This document shows positions 46,124 through 54,082 of a stretch of 64,000 nucleotides of DNA, one piece after another. Source of the DNA: Nitzschia sp. DOCU1 (lineage: Eukaryota; Bacillariophyta; Bacillariophyceae; Bacillariales; Bacillariaceae); the NCBI GenBank assembly GCA_951394045.1, contig OX595989.1, positions 434,001 through 498,000 on the forward strand, in the 5' to 3' direction. A model generated the notes under the pieces. It saw only the letters and a program-made list of their open reading frames with translations. It was not told the origin of the DNA and did no database searches. Positions within the stretch are counted from its first letter, which is position 1. Each line of letters starts with the position of its first letter. The position numbers were made by a program, and so were the translations under genes.

Positions 46124-48783
46124 ATGTCTGACGAATCGAAGAACAACAGCAGCGACTTGAAAGAAGAAACAAAAATGGGGGGATCATCCCCACCTGCTCA
46201 CCATCATCTGCTACACCACCTTCGAGAGGAAGAACAACAAGAAGCAATACTAGTACTCGCTCAGCATACCAGTTCTGCTAGTCCCTCCTCCTCAGCGTCG
46301 GCGCCGTTCAACCAGCAGCAGGAGGGGGGGATGCAAAACCAGAAGACGGCAACAGTAGCACTTGCTGAGACAACCCGGTCACTACAGAGCAAAAAACGAA
46401 GCATATCAAGCCTGACAACAACCACCACTATTACTACTACTAGTACCACGACGGCAGAAGAAGGAACAGCATCACTCGTCCTCAGCAGCAGGAGTCAAGA
46501 ACGGGGGCTGCTATACGAGCAAGATTCAACCGCCGGTAGGAGTAGCTCCTCAAATCCACGAGTATCGTTGCCAGCCGCAAGAAACACCAGCCAAACAGAT
46601 GATATCCTTGAGAGATTACAAGCTTTTTCAAGGAACAAGCTAACACGGGACGAACTGCAAGAAGCTCTTCTAGACATGCATGGTGCCATCGCATCTGCCG
46701 ACGACGACTCGCATTGCGACGAGGACGACGCCTCGTTTCTCCTCGAACTTTTGGTTCGCTTGGATTTGGAGCTAGTTTCAGTTCTTCGTTCTACTGCCCA
46801 GCAGCATGAAGGTGAGGATATTGGGTCATCTGATTGGTTGTCCACGGCTTCGTCCACTCCTCTCTCAAGGCAAGAAGAAACCTCGTCGTCTGGTCTCTTC
46901 GATAGATTTTTTCTATTGCCTTTTCTAAGAGCCGAGACCTACGATCCAATCAAAGCAGCAGCAAGAATTCGTCGATATGTGACTTGGAAGACTAAACTAT
47001 ACCATGAAGGAAACACAACTCTGGAGGCGCAAATATCGACGGGTGATGAAGTTTTCGCGGCCAAGAACTTTACTGAATTCGAGAGAAAGGTTCTCAAGAG
47101 TGGCTTCATCCAGCTTCTACCTTTGCGAGATCAAATTGGTCGAGCGGTTCTATGGATTTCGCTGTCATCGTTACATGCATTGTCAACAAGAAGGGTGGCC
47201 CCGGACGCTGTGTGTTCAGATGATGTTGCGACTTCTGCGTCGGGTCGCCGTGTATCGGCTGCGGACGCCACTCGACGAGGGGCTGCAGCATCCACCACCA
47301 GCAATTTCTCATCAATGATGGATCGTCCTGCCGCCGTTGACATGGTGGCAGAAGAAGAACGAGCGTCGCTGCTGGCGTTGGCAAAGGTAAGGCGGCAGAA
47401 AGAATAAGAAGCAGGCTAAAACTTCGACCCACGCAAAAGTGCATACTGATTTACAATCTGCTAGCCTGCATCTACAACTTTCCGTCCTTTGCCGTCACTT
47501 CGTTGCTACTACTGGACACCCCGTTCTAATCTCTGTTTTGTTCCTTTCGCGTTTGCCGCCAATTACGTAAAGTGCAAAGCTGTTTGGTACGTTGCGACCA
47601 AAGGCCTGAGGAACGACCAAGGTACTCAGCGAAAAGGGGCCGTATTGGTTGTGGTCGCGTCATCGTCGGTAACTCCTCCTGATGGCAGCACTCTTAGTAG
47701 GACCACTGGTACGGCGGATAATTCTTCCAGCATACCCCCCAAATGCACCGAAGAACAAGCGATTCAACTTGCGCGGCAACTCACACAACTGGTGCCTCTG
47801 AGGATTGCCGCAATCCACGTACTTTTCCGCCCCGACGATATTGCCTTTCGGCCGATTCTCAGTACGGCAGTCATGGCTATTGACGTAAGGATGCAGGCCA
47901 GAGTGAAATATCACCCTATAGGTACGTGTGCGATTGAATCCCGGCGTCCCCCCGTGTTGGAGCTGGATCTCCTTTACAACGTTCTCTTTTTTCTTTGACT
48001 TTTGACTGAATTGCTGATCCTCCTTTTCTGTCGTTGTATGTTTCGTTGGGGACTACTGAATCGATAGAAAGCTGGAAAGAAATTGGGCCGAGTCTTGCAG
48101 GATTTGGGATACCGGAGAAAATCATTCCCGTCCGAGACAACAAAGATGGCACATTCTCTACGACCACGGAATACCATGAACAGTGGGTTGAGAGTGCGTT
48201 TCTTGGGGAGTCAGTGACGACTGGAGTCGGATCTTCATCGAGCCTACACCACCACCAAGGGGGAGAAACTCAAACGACGCCGCCGCCGCCAAGCCAATCG
48301 CAACCAGTCGTGGCAACATCAGACGGCAATGCGTCGGTCACAACTAACACTAGCGGTGGGTGGTCTCTCGAGCAAGGCACAAGTACTAGTTCGAATGCGG
48401 CGACGGCAGCGTCCGCGCTGCTGTCTGAGACTGGCGAATTTGATGTTCTAATGGGAGCCAGGACCAGAGAAGTGGACAATAGCACTGGCAATCTTCAACT
48501 CCGACGTTTGATCGAAAGGAACCTTGACACCTACAACAACGCTCCCCGCGTCGTGAAGACAAAGATCACCGAAATGATAGTCATGAGAATCAAAGAAGCG
48601 GGAGGGTGTTTCCTTCAGTATAGCAGTCAAGGCCACCGTAAAGGGCGTTGGCTCGAGGTGGATAACGACGCCGCAAGAGAGAAGATTGCCAGATCGTTCC
48701 GGAATTTTCGCCGATTACCTTCAGCAGGAAGGACACATGCTACTACTGTTAGCAGCGGCGGGACAGCATCGAGCAATTCCTAG
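46124..48783 (+). CDS. CRAL-TRIO-like/DUF6824 fusion protein, paralogue A
   Basis: Exons 46124-47386, 47573-47921 and 48068-48783 keep one frame (775 residues). Introns are 186 and 146 bp; donors are GTAAGG and GTACGT. The N-terminal third is disordered. A CRAL-TRIO-like N-terminal helical part follows at about residues 240-385 (AARIRRYVTWKTKLY, FERKVLKSGFIQLLPLRDQIGRAVLW). Exon 2 encodes the lipid-binding-like continuation (AVWYVATKGLRND). Exon 3 has a linker GFGIPEKIIPVRDNKDG and a DUF6824 domain (FDVLMGARTREVDNSTGN... to ...AAREKIARSFRNFRR). Paralogues B and C share the same order and splice phases. Function unknown; lipid sensing plus DNA or protein binding is only a guess. Confidence 0.75.
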
Positions 48784-49314
48784 AAACAAAATTTGGGGTA
48801 GCATCGATTTTGTTAGAAGAGGCTTCGTCTGAGGAGGAATAGCTCAAAAGTATCTGCGGGCATGCTGCTGCTGATATGATTTCATCATTTGCGTTGTTAT
48901 TCAGGCACTAGAAAGTGTCGGAGCATAGACGGTAATTCTCACCGCTCAGCAGCAGCTCCTCTCTCTTTCATGAGAGGATAATGAAAACCCGACAAGATCC
49001 GTCATGGTCAAAAAACCCAAAATGGGGTGCATGGAAACTTCGAACTCCCATCCCTTCCCGCCAAAAAATCTATATGACTCATCGGACTTATTGAACGTTA
49101 TTTACGATGCATGTCTCACGATATTTTCGCGCCGGCCGATGCCAAAGGATGGCAGGCGAGCGCGGCAAAAGGAATGACGTCGCAGGCTTCGAAGATCAAC
49201 TTCGAAATCGGTCGAACCATTCGTTTGCTTCCTTTCCTTTCGGACGATCTCGTCGCTTTTCCTTCTGCTTCCAACAGATTCAACAGCACCAACCCGAAGC
49301 AGCACGTTGTGTTC
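48784..49314. other. Intergenic region upstream of the DsbA-type gene
   Basis: The reading frame of the downstream gene is open back to an ATG at 49111 (MSHDIFAPADAKG), so part of this may be coding if the longer start is used. Otherwise no features. Confidence 0.35.
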
Positions 49315-50073
49315 ATGTTATTCATAAAATCTACTTTGTTGCTTGTATCGGCAGCTCTCTCATTGAATAGCGGCAGCAACAATAGCAACACCGACATGAG
49401 TGCCACCAGCAACCTTGCCAAGGCCGTGACGGTCAAGATCGTCAGCGATGTGGTGTGACCCTTCTGTTACATTGGCTTGCGTCACTTGGAGATTGCGAGT
49501 CAAACTTCGGGCATCAAGGTGAACCTGGAGTGGTTGCCGTTTCTGCTCAATCCCAACATGGATGACGAGGGGGAAGACTTAAAGGCGCACCTTACCAAGA
49601 AGTATGGTCCAGCCGGAGTGAAGAACTTTGGAGATCCAAACTCTAACATGATGAAAATGGGGCGCAAGGTTGGCATCGAGTTTACCAGTGATCGCAAGGT
49701 GGTCAATACGAAACGTGCACATGCGTTGATGGAGCATCTCAAGGCACGGGGAGAAAATGACAATGCGAATAGTTTTATGGTTGATCTTTACAAGGCATAT
49801 TTCGAAAGGGGCGAGAACATCAACGACGAAAAACGTTTGGTGGAAATGGTCCAAAAATATGGAGTGGACGAAACAGAGGCGCAGTTTGCCATGGGCGGAC
49901 ATAACTTATTGGATATCACCAAGAAGGATCGACAAGTGAAGAGCATGTACGGCGTGAGCGGCGTCCCATTCTATATGATTCATCCCAACGACGGTGGGAC
50001 ACCAGTGGCGTTCTCGGGTGCTTATCCTCCTGAAATCATTGCCGAGCAGCTCGAAGAAGCCGCCGATGTCTAA
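49315..50073 (+). CDS. DsbA/FrnE-type thiol oxidoreductase, candidate selenoprotein
   Basis: Thioredoxin-fold DsbA/FrnE-type protein. The frame is single and open from 49111 to 50073 except one TGA at 49456-49458. It reads IVSDVV-(TGA)-PFCYIG, so the TGA occupies the first Cys of the catalytic C-P-x-C. The rest is well kept: GLRHLEIASQTSGIKVNLEW, the helical insert, and the cis-Pro loop GVSGVPFYMI. This is the pattern of a selenocysteine codon. Starts at 49111, 49315 (MLFIKSTLLLVSAAL, a possible signal peptide) or 49396 are possible; 49315 is chosen. About 252 residues with Sec near residue 48. No canonical SECIS was found by eye, so a nonsense mutation at this exact codon is the alternative. 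Confidence 0.7.
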
Positions 50074-50160
50074 ATGGTAGTCGAAAAGATCTCTCAAGGA
50101 GAGAAGGCAGCACGCGTAACAACAAGCCGATCGCGTTAGGCATTCATACTGCGAATGACT

Positions 50161-50210
50161 GGAATATAGGCACGTCGTCCAAAGGATAAGTGACGACATG
50201 CTGATATTCC
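50161..50210 (+). other. Stem-loop in the 3' UTR of the candidate selenoprotein gene
   Basis: GGAATAT (50161-50167) pairs with ATATTCC (50204-50210). Inside, CACGTCGTC (50171-50179) pairs with GACGACATG (50192-50200) with one mismatch. The loop contains CAAAGGATAAG. ATGA (50155-50158) and TTGA (50211-50214) flank the stem, reminiscent of a SECIS quartet, but the spacing from ATGA to the loop adenines is too long for the standard eukaryotic form. Confidence 0.35.
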
Positions 50211-50375
50211 TTGAACAGCAGTATCTGCCAAACGAAGAGTTCGTTGCTCGCTGATAGACAATCCTTAGTAGACTCTATTTTGAACTAATGTGTGTCCCTA
50301 TGTCACTGAGTCCTGCGGGTTTTGGTGCCTACTACGGCCGTTACACAGCAAGCCGACAATACTCGCATGGTTTTG

Positions 50376-51961
50376 TTACCTTAGCTTGCTGCCTCCTCCT
50401 TTCCGTCGATAATTTCTGAAGGCATGACTTATCTTTTCGCGCGCTACCTCGTCCGAGACTTCCTCCCAGCCATTGTCCACTCGCTTTAGGAATCGAGCTC
50501 TGCCTTCTCGCATGTGCTGAAGCAAACTGGCTGCTAGTATCGTCTTTTCGAATTTGGAAGAATCGTTGTATCGGGTTGTATACGATTCTACAAGATTGCG
50601 AAGTACCACGTTCCCGGGATTTTCGTCTCGATAGCTGACTCGAGGCCCCATCAACACGTCTTGTGGCGCCGGCAGCTGAATGATACCGCCGGGACCAACA
50701 GTGCTGCTCAGCGCCTCCGCCGACCCTACGGAGGAAGCAGAGGACGCCTGCTTGCTATCATTGTGGTTAACATCCATAATGGTCGACGCATCGGTGCCAC
50801 TTTGGGCGCGGGTATTGCTTTTCACACAATTAGGAAGCATTTCTATTTGAGGAAGACGAATGTCGCCGTTGGCATCAACAGGAAGAACTGACTTTGGAAT
50901 GCCAAAGGTCTCCAATGTGTACAGGCATTCCATCGGGGACCCTGGTTACAAGAAATAACACCCAAGTTAAGATGATGTGACATACTAAACCATCAGGCTG
51001 CACAAAGTTCAACACTCGTACCTAGGTGTACCCTGAACCGCACTCGTCGCTTGGCGCTCATCGCGTCCATTGCAGATCGAAACGCAAGGTTCAATCTAGG
51101 CCCAGTTGCGCAATAGTGTAGACCAACCAATCGAATCGGGACAGACTCACTGGTTTTTGCACCCTGTTTCCAAACCTCAAAGTCTACGTCGTGAATACTG
51201 AAGCGAGTTTGGAACATGTAGAGCACAATGATATAGCCAGTCCGCTGTGCGTCTTCATCATTTTCAAAGGTTTTCATATCAAGATACCACTGTGCTCTGC
51301 AAAAATTCAGCCACTTCCTGTATCGAACTTGATGGGGAACAAGAAAAACAATGGGCCGTCCAAAGCGATCCTTCTCCGGTAAAAATTGCAGACCTCCTGA
51401 TTTGACACAATCTCTATCATCCGCATCTAGGTCTTCCCACGTAATTTGCTTCGCAAGCTTTTCTGCTCCAAACAAGAGCTCCTTTTGCTCAAAATGCTTA
51501 ACAAATCGATCTGCTGCTCGCTGTGAATCAAACTCTACCGAACGTAGAAACATCAACCTAAGACGGCTGTCTTGGACGAATTCCGGCGCAATGGCATATG
51601 CCTTGTCGTAGGCCACATTGTGGGAAACCTTGCTGAGTGCCTCTTGCATTTCATATAGACCTTGTCGAATCATTTCGGGGGTCTCGGACTGATGTTGTGG
51701 AAGCGGGCCGCTGCAAATTTCCTGAAAGATTCGACGACGCTCGTCCGCGCTAAGGTTATCCAGTTCACTGTCCACTTGTTGTAGGATTTCGTCAAACTCG
51801 CTGCGGCCTACCAGCCTCTTGGTTCTATTTCCCCTGTTAAGAGCAGCAGAGGAGAAGTTTTGGTCCCCGCTGCCACAAAATGCACCGGGAAAACACGGCT
51901 GGCACGCCGCTGGTTGCTGCAAAGACCCCGGGGCCTTGCCAGTTGTTAAATCAGAGTCCAT
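50376..51961 (-). CDS. CRAL-TRIO-like/DUF6824 fusion protein, paralogue B
   Basis: Complement of 51022-51961 joined to 50376-50941 across an 80-bp intron (phase 1), 501 residues, start MDSDLTTGK. N-terminal helical region with FDEILQQVDSELDNLS, then a CRAL-TRIO-like part (LRSVEFDSQRAADRFVKHFE, SGGLQFLPEKDRFGRPIVFL, GYIIVLYMFQTRF). After the intron: ETFGIPKSVLPVDANGDI, then DUF6824 (PQDVLMGPRVSYRDENPGN, VEEV-like WEEVSDEVAREKISHAFRN). All parts are intact, making this the cleanest member of the cluster. The convergent 3' end lies about 300 bp from the DsbA-type gene. Function unknown. Confidence 0.8.
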
Positions 51962-52499: not shown

Positions 52500-54082
52500 T
52501 CAAAAGAACGAACCTGGCCTTGTGGGATTGTCAGCCCACAGGCAGGAAACATACTTCTTCGATCCGTCGTGCATTCCGTCGCGTTGTCGTGGTCCCTTGC
52601 TGGCTCTTAGGTTTCGGAATGTATGCGCGATTTTCTCGACAGCAACGTCATCACTTACAGTCTCCCATACGCCGTTCGAGGATTCTCTCAGGAACCGACA
52701 GCCGTTGCACGAAGCAAAGTATGGGATAATGTGATCTTTTCATACCGTGGACAGGCATTGTAGCGGTCAAAATGCTTGGCAACTAATTGCCGAAGCCTCG
52801 AGTTCCCAAGACTATAAGCTATGTCCGCTCCCCGACCCAACATCACGTCAATGGGTTTTGGAACGATTTTGCTGTTGTCTCCACGAGAAGCATTTTCATT
52901 CGCCTCCTCTTGACGGATCGTCGTCTCGATGAATTCGTTGATTCCGACAATCTGAACTTCTCCATTGTGGTCTACAGGGACGATTGCTTTCGGAATGCCT
53001 ACTGACATTAGCTCGTACAACACTTCTTGCGTCGTGCCTTTCGTGGAACAAATACGAAACTCTAGGGTGAGTAGGCATTTCGACCACCGAGACAACCTCT
53101 ACGCCAAATGCTGCTGACTTACCACAGTGGAACTTGATCCTTGCACGAAGACTCTTTTCGAGCAGCAAAGCACCAAACCTCAAGATATGAGCCCCAGCAC
53201 TTTCATTCAGGCACCAATGCACGGCGGAAAAGCGGATGGGTGCCGCCTTAACCACCTGAACGAACGTCGCCGTTCGCTTTCGTTGCTCTGGAACGTACTC
53301 GTAAGAGTGATCAATCATCCACCAGAGTCTGACGACGCCGTTCTTTTGGGTGATTTCATCCCTGGCCGCAAGCTCCAAGTGATACCAAATTATACATTGC
53401 TAGTAGAACAATAGCAACATGTACATCGAGGCAGGAGACAATTTGAGACAGAAAAAGAGGTGAGAAACAATGGGTTTTCGCCACGACCCTTGATCAATGA
53501 TTCAGCACCTACCCGATCCCTTGTAGGAACGTCCTCTTTCAATAGATCCTTCGTAGCAAATAGTATCAGCCGGCCTGATTGGTCTCGGTGCGGCAGGAAA
53601 CGTATCACGCCGCTTTGTAGAATTTTCAGAGACCCTGGAGGAAGATCCTTCAACCGTATTTCGCGGCCTAACTTTTCTTCTCCAAACAGCATAAGCTTCC
53701 AGGAAAAATATTGTAGCATCCGTTCGGCAGCTTTCTTGACTTCGAAGAGCTCGGCTCGAAGGATGCGAATGCGAAGGTCTCGACTTTTGGTAAATTCTGG
53801 CGCCGTAGCTCGAGCAAGACTGTAGGCATGCGATGAGACCGAGCTATCGATCATTAGCCTATTCAGCACGTCTTCTAGTTCCGCCAAATTGCGGTCCAGC
53901 TCATCTCCTGACGGCTCGTCGAATTCGATCTTCATCCCGTGAACCTCTAATAATGCCGTATGCCGTTCGTTGAAGGAAAGCTCACCGAATGTCGCGGCCA
54001 GTCTCTGCTCCAATTCCTCTGCCCTGGGGGCAACATCGTCATGAAGGGCCTTATTAGTTGACGGCCACATCCACATCGTGCC
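52500..54082 (-). pseudogene. CRAL-TRIO-like/DUF6824 fusion, paralogue C, frameshifted in DUF6824
   Basis: Exons (complement) 53513-54082, 53123-53399 and 52688-53061; introns 113 and 61 bp. Start MWMWPSTNK at 54082 is chosen because upstream sequence is A-rich and leader-like. CRAL-TRIO-like part: RIRILRAELFEVKKAAERM, SGVIRFLPHRDQSGRLILF, and in exon 2 RFSAVHWCLNESAGAH. Exon 3: SVGIPKAIVPVDHNGEV and DUF6824 (PIDVMLGRGADIAYSLGN). At about 52705 the frame breaks: the in-frame reading stops at 52688, while the conserved end of the domain (GCRFLRESSNG, VAVEKIAHTFRNLR) continues in the neighbouring frame to a stop at 52500. A one-base deletion explains it; a sequencing indel is possible. Confidence 0.7.

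Follow-up and report, generated by a model that had tools for sequence, protein, structure and literature searches.

The window, by which we mean the whole 64-kb stretch of DNA that was analysed, carries on its forward strand a reading frame from 49111 to 50073 that ends in TAA and contains a single internal stop, a TGA at 49456-49458 in the context IVSDVV-TGA-PFCYIG. The original prediction had described one undamaged frame with a lone TGA at the first Cys of a CxxC motif and had read this TGA as selenocysteine (Sec); we saw the same frame again, with no further stop and in alignment with its relatives. Starting from 49396 and with the TGA as Sec, the ORF gives 225 aa. The features at the locus are:

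49315..50073, + strand: probable full CDS of 252 residues with Sec as residue 48 (N-terminal extension common to the relative P0001)
49396..50073, + strand: conserved FrnE/DsbA-family domain of 225 residues (Pfam, PDB, AlphaFold2 model, Foldseek)
49456..49458, + strand: TGA codon, putatively Sec, at the first position of U-P-F-C (alignment, second gene, relatives)
50071..50073, + strand: TAA stop codon (frame reading)
50146..50224, + strand: SECIS-like element, two helices around an internal loop with the core (fold z, descriptor)
50154..50159, + strand: 5' strand of the candidate SECIS core, AATGAC (invariant in nine aligned elements, themselves chosen by AATGAC)
50212..50214, + strand: 3' strand of the candidate SECIS core, TGA (descriptor)

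The FrnE gene is flanked on both sides by genes with Pfam matches to DUF6824 (48034-48783, forward; 50376-50933, reverse), and an ORF at 52688-53095 on the reverse strand looks similar to these two by eye.

The protein encoded by this frame matched Pfam DSBA (PF01323) at 92.1 bits (cut-off 25.6; E 4.8e-26), the match spanning residues 12-219, while an NCBIfam search of the protein returned no match. Among solved structures, Deinococcus radiodurans FrnE (5cnw, 5co3, 5cp1, 5xwh) was the best sequence match (5cp1/5cnw, E 1.8e-18), followed by Streptomyces SCO1869 (E 1.5e-13), and the TGA codon aligns to the first Cys of CPWC in these structures. An AlphaFold2 model made from a 30-row alignment had a mean pLDDT of 93.9, and its best Foldseek matches were again D. 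radiodurans FrnE and SCO1869. The D. radiodurans protein differs from the window gene in having Cys at the first active-site position, and the two are 27-28% identical in fold alignments of the four structures. Residues V190-P191 of the GVSGVP loop, whose proline is cis in the DsbA family, were invariant in the 30-sequence alignment. The DsbA/FrnE-type assignment and the GVSGVP loop of the original prediction are thus borne out by Pfam, the PDB match and the invariant Val-Pro pair.

We then asked which residue database relatives carry where the window gene has TGA. For the window gene (FrnE1), the best 120 of 243 relatives were listed, 99 of them at 45% identity or more. Among these 99 listed relatives, 18 have Trp at the Sec residue, 74 begin downstream of it (at query residues 26 to 88), three have Cys, one with a diverged N-terminus has Leu and three have other starts; across all 120 of the 243, the corresponding counts were 18 Trp, 76 downstream starts, 22 Cys, one Leu and three other starts. 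Trp in place of the catalytic Cys would most simply reflect a TGA translated under genetic code 4 by the gene caller of the source; contig ends or introns, for instance, may account for some of the downstream starts. Conservation extends past the TGA (P0005 is 91% identical over 171 residues and P0003 80%) and upstream of it through the first beta strand, in agreement with the claim that the sequence is conserved on both sides. Among the relatives listed for this gene and for its paralogue (FrnE2, below), those with a legible eukaryote name are diatoms, Nitzschia sp. Nitz4, N. inconspicua, Cylindrotheca, Seminavis and Cyclotella among them, so that the genome is probably that of a diatom close to Nitzschia. 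No relative was found in the viral contigs searched, and of 444 loci in prokaryote genomes 80 were kept, all with bacterial titles. Judging by their names, P0014 (Sec site skipped) and P0022 (Cys form) are adjacent models on Nitz4 scaffold436 and are possibly a tandem Sec/Cys pair.

The mechanical ORF runs from a TTG at 49477 to 50073 (198 aa), just as the original prediction had expected of a conventional annotation, and the JGI relative P0003 is an equal 198-aa model that begins at LRHLEI. If the gene truly began past the TGA, say at TTG 49477, the protein would lack the first Cys. Models of this kind make up 74 of the 99 close relatives listed, which speaks for such a start; conservation upstream of the TGA and the loss of both the active site and the first strand speak against it, and we give this possibility next to no weight. 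From the in-frame ATG at 49315, the N-terminus reads MLFIKSTLLLVSAALSLNSG, and P0001 (78% identical) opens MFFVKPLFAIATAALSLNKG. Since P0001 has the same N-terminal extension, the gene probably starts at ATG 49315 (252 aa) rather than at 49396, although several other Trp-type relatives begin near the equivalent of 49396, which counts against treating the start as settled. For the ORF originally placed at 49396..50073, therefore, the domain and the stop end stand, while the start more likely lies at 49315. The N-terminus from 49315, judged by eye without a predictor, is suggestive of a signal peptide.

A single stop is all that parts this frame from an ordinary gene, and a pseudogene or an allele in which a chance nonsense mutation struck the catalytic codon would look similar at first sight. 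However, the frame has no other stop and stays conserved past this one, as the comparisons with P0005 and P0003 show, and the genome holds a second FrnE gene with the same interruption. This gene, FrnE2 (L002:1495-2166, minus; G000:C9), is a distant paralogue, 33% identical to the window gene; its TGA falls on the equivalent codon (AUPWCYVG), and an AATGAC/TGA hairpin lies 56-92 nt past its stop. Among the 120 listed of its 438 relatives, there are 105 downstream starts, nine other starts, four Cys and two Trp. A genome search with PF01323 recovered the two FrnE genes and, as a weak match, a CPYS protein that lacks TGA, and no Cys-form FrnE was found in the genome by an exon-by-exon search. 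Together with the Trp and downstream-start relatives of FrnE1 and the SECIS-like hairpin described below, these observations leave a pseudogene very improbable. A sequencing error that hides a true TGC or TGT is less probable still, for the same apparent change would need to recur in another gene of this assembly and in relatives that come from several sources. On these sequence comparisons, the TGA at 49456 is more than chance, because FrnE2 has the same TGA and relatives are broken at this position or upstream of it.

We also searched the assembly (52 Mb, 63 contigs) for the Sec machinery and for other selenoprotein families. Five of ten tRNA-Sec matches were above the Rfam cut-off, all five with a TCA anticodon. 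Four of these genes stand in tandem at G000:C5:639526-640069 (L003-L005 and L007; start spacing 164, 147 and 147) on the contig of the window, about 140 kb beyond it, and the fifth (L006) is on C6. The tRNA-Sec gene is usually assumed to be single-copy. Four tRNA-Sec are listed for the diatom F. cylindrus in PMC5330540. A SepSecS gene was present, and one of two SelD-like (SPS) matches has TGA at the redox position. TGA also occupies the redox site in three of four GPx matches, one of four Rdx matches (SelT), the one SelM/Sep15-like match and three of 15 MsrA matches. One MsrA gene, L117 (G000:C13:1159500-1163500, minus), has its TGA at G-U-F-W. Two other MsrA matches among the 15, G000:C1:5033272-5033778 and C2:314517-315023, have equal scores, and this pair is a recent duplicate or an assembly copy.

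These genes also allowed us to weigh the reading in which TGA stands for Trp or some other residue, through a changed genetic code or general read-through. The database relatives with W at the residue fit such a code, as does a fourth TGA-bearing MsrA match (L116) with its TGA away from the redox site. However, the L116 TGA lies at the margin of an exon match and may belong to an intron. The 3321 matched codons of 21 loci include 54 TGG and eight TGA; each of the eight TGA belongs to a different gene and marks the redox site of a selenoprotein family. The first stop after the 21 family matches was TGA in six cases, TAG in eight and TAA in seven, where two of the six TGA stops come from one duplicate pair of loci and an intron may intervene before some; TGA is thus also an ordinary stop in this genome. 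Trp, moreover, is not known to be capable of the chemistry of the first CxxC Cys, which counts against a Trp reading of the TGA. We accordingly consider a changed code hardly credible.

The original prediction had pointed to the 3' flank as the place for a SECIS element, and a candidate was found there at 50146-50224, about 73 to 151 nt past the TAA stop. This hairpin folds at -31.2 kcal/mol (z -5.39), and none of 200 shuffles was as stable. Like eukaryotic SECIS elements, it lies in the 3' flank and has an ATGA/TGA core between two helices, with an internal loop of GAAUGACU/UUGAACA. Bacterial Sec decoding, in contrast, uses an in-gene element. The hairpin is non-canonical in its long helix II and distant A-rich loop: in canonical SECIS elements the A-rich apical motif is about one helical turn from the core, and here the apical loop has its AAA 22 nt after ATGA, farther out than the canonical spacing. 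The GPx gene L020 resembles it in having a long upper stem and an AA 25 nt after ATGA (counted by eye). Helix II of the FrnE-gene hairpin opens with a U-U mismatch, as do the Dictyostelium SECIS elements in which Lobanov et al. note a U-U mismatch just past the core (PMC2375036).

We compared the flank of the window gene with those of the other TGA genes using a descriptor consisting of AATGAC, 24-70 nt and TGA, with at least seven pairs among the first 12 and up to two mismatches tolerated. Since the descriptor was derived from TGA genes of the same genome and shaped on six of them, counts among these favour it; it matched nine of 11 TGA-gene flanks (400 nt each) with scores of 8-12, the FrnE gene scoring 10. 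None of 57 control flanks matched, and AATGAC alone occurred in nine of the 57; these controls are the flanks of mechanical ORFs of at least 150 aa from both strands of the window and of 12 loci, many of which are not real genes, and the loci include one duplicate pair. In both strands of the 64-kb window (128 kb), the sole match was the one at the FrnE gene. The descriptor failed at the SelM/Sep15-like gene L104, where AATGAC is present, the helix is absent and the gene end is uncertain, and at MsrA L117, the sole gene tested after the descriptor was fixed, where AATGAC is absent from the 400-nt 3' flank. By eye, an AATGAA/TGAG hairpin can be made out about 60 nt past the L117 stop, an uncontrolled post hoc observation.

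An earlier descriptor requiring five consecutive pairs passed five of six flanks, with GPx L020 failing, and gave three matches in the 128 kb of the window, of which that of the FrnE gene alone had at least six pairs; 0.3-1.2% of Markov-shuffled flanks matched it. The first scanner, set to a minimum of 44 nt between the cores, overlooked several elements and was replaced, and none of its listed candidates had an unpaired AA at the canonical place. When the other candidates were folded alone, z was -2.36 for FrnE2, -2.54 for SelT and -3.98 for SPS L114; -2.09, -4.82 and +2.15 for GPx L019, L020 and L021, the last being less stable than all 200 shuffles; and -1.41 and -1.56 for MsrA L111 and L115, the best L111 fold not being SECIS-shaped. 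A MAFFT alignment of nine SECIS candidates was good at the 5' core only, so no covariance model was made.

Rfam SECIS_1 gave no match in the gene flank (E up to 10) or in the whole genome, and an Rfam scan of the window at the gathering score also returned no match. Because the 14 controls, which were silent too, are all prokaryotic and the model likewise missed the TGA-bearing GPx, SelT and MsrA genes, we treat this silence as a limit of the model here. Sub-threshold Rfam matches in the gene flank were mir-1993 (over the hairpin), MIR444 and HDV-F-prausnitzii (E 1.1 to 6.4).

Taken together, the second TGA-bearing FrnE gene, the Sec machinery, the SECIS-like hairpin and the Trp-type relatives make it very likely that UGA 49456 is decoded as Sec and that the gene makes a Sec-containing FrnE-type (DsbA-family) thiol-disulfide oxidoreductase, in keeping with the original prediction. 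The relatives at the Sec codon bear this out in 18 Trp and 74 downstream starts among the 99 listed, and the three Cys relatives among these 99, like the descriptor misses at L104 and L117, weigh against it. Decoding would be carried out by the eukaryotic Sec machinery, directed by the downstream SECIS hairpin. Family, TGA position, conservation, Sec machinery genes and hairpin can be read from the sequence; actual decoding, catalysis and cellular location we infer. The protein would form a thioredoxin domain into which a helical domain is inserted, and U-P-F-C would sit at the start of the first helix and face the cis-Pro loop GVSGVP. Sec21 (numbering from 49396) would be the attacking residue and would form a selenenylsulfide with the resolving Cys24. 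The hydrophobic N-terminus may direct the protein into the secretory pathway, where disulfides would be made, broken or isomerised.

Ordinary annotation splits this gene in two and removes its active site. With 74 of the 99 listed relatives starting past the Sec codon, a few of which may be fragments for other reasons, the same error is suggested at scale. The gene adds to the evidence for selenoprotein-rich diatoms and, if the Sec reading is true, disulfide chemistry, perhaps secretory, would be tied to selenium supply in these organisms.

To place the two FrnE genes in context, we made a tree of 95 rows, comprising the two genes of this genome, 19 Trp-type and 26 Cys-type relatives and 48 others. 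The 48 are every fourth of 190 other relatives of at least 165 aa, five of 240 having been dropped as shorter; Trp-type relatives counted 20, and P0040, missed by the label pattern, is absent from the tree. One branch (100/99) separated the FrnE1 and FrnE2 families. The FrnE1 clade (41 rows, 100/99) adjoins 12 bacterial-looking Cys proteins, some named Ruegeria, and the FrnE2 clade (35 rows, 100/100) stands with seven other Cys proteins, with a weak closest joint (81/73). The starred branches require at least six changes of the Cys label. These data are consistent with two separate Cys-to-Sec conversions, in FrnE1 and FrnE2, as a possible history; it is not proven because the bacterial-looking Cys rows came from the FrnE1 search alone, which biases the bacterial sampling. 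A fuller scenario, which we offer tentatively and think rather doubtful, is that the two FrnE genes came from separate branches of the bacterial FrnE tree and each changed Cys to Sec at this codon, independently and within the diatom lineage, that all Cys forms were then lost in this organism, leaving its FrnE activity selenium-dependent, and that its SECIS elements accept an A-rich motif lying about two helical turns away from the core.

DsbA/FrnE selenoproteins have already been published in algae, and the window gene would be a further one. PMC7539508 counts DSBA with the Sec proteins of widest distribution in algae and gives 20-44 selenoprotein genes for diatoms, and PMC6627142 reports Sec FrnE in Mamiellophyceae and M. 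viride. Bacterial DsbA selenoprotein families with a UxxC motif are described from the Global Ocean Sampling data (PMC2398784), and the window gene resembles the marine bacterial DsbA 1 selenoprotein given there in its pfam01323 domain and UxxC motif, a likeness of description rather than sequence. The algal DSBA selenoproteins (PMC7539508, PMC6627142) are likewise comparable by description, not sequence, as Sec-containing DsbA/FrnE oxidoreductases; relative to them, the genome studied here has two distinct TGA-bearing FrnE clades side by side.
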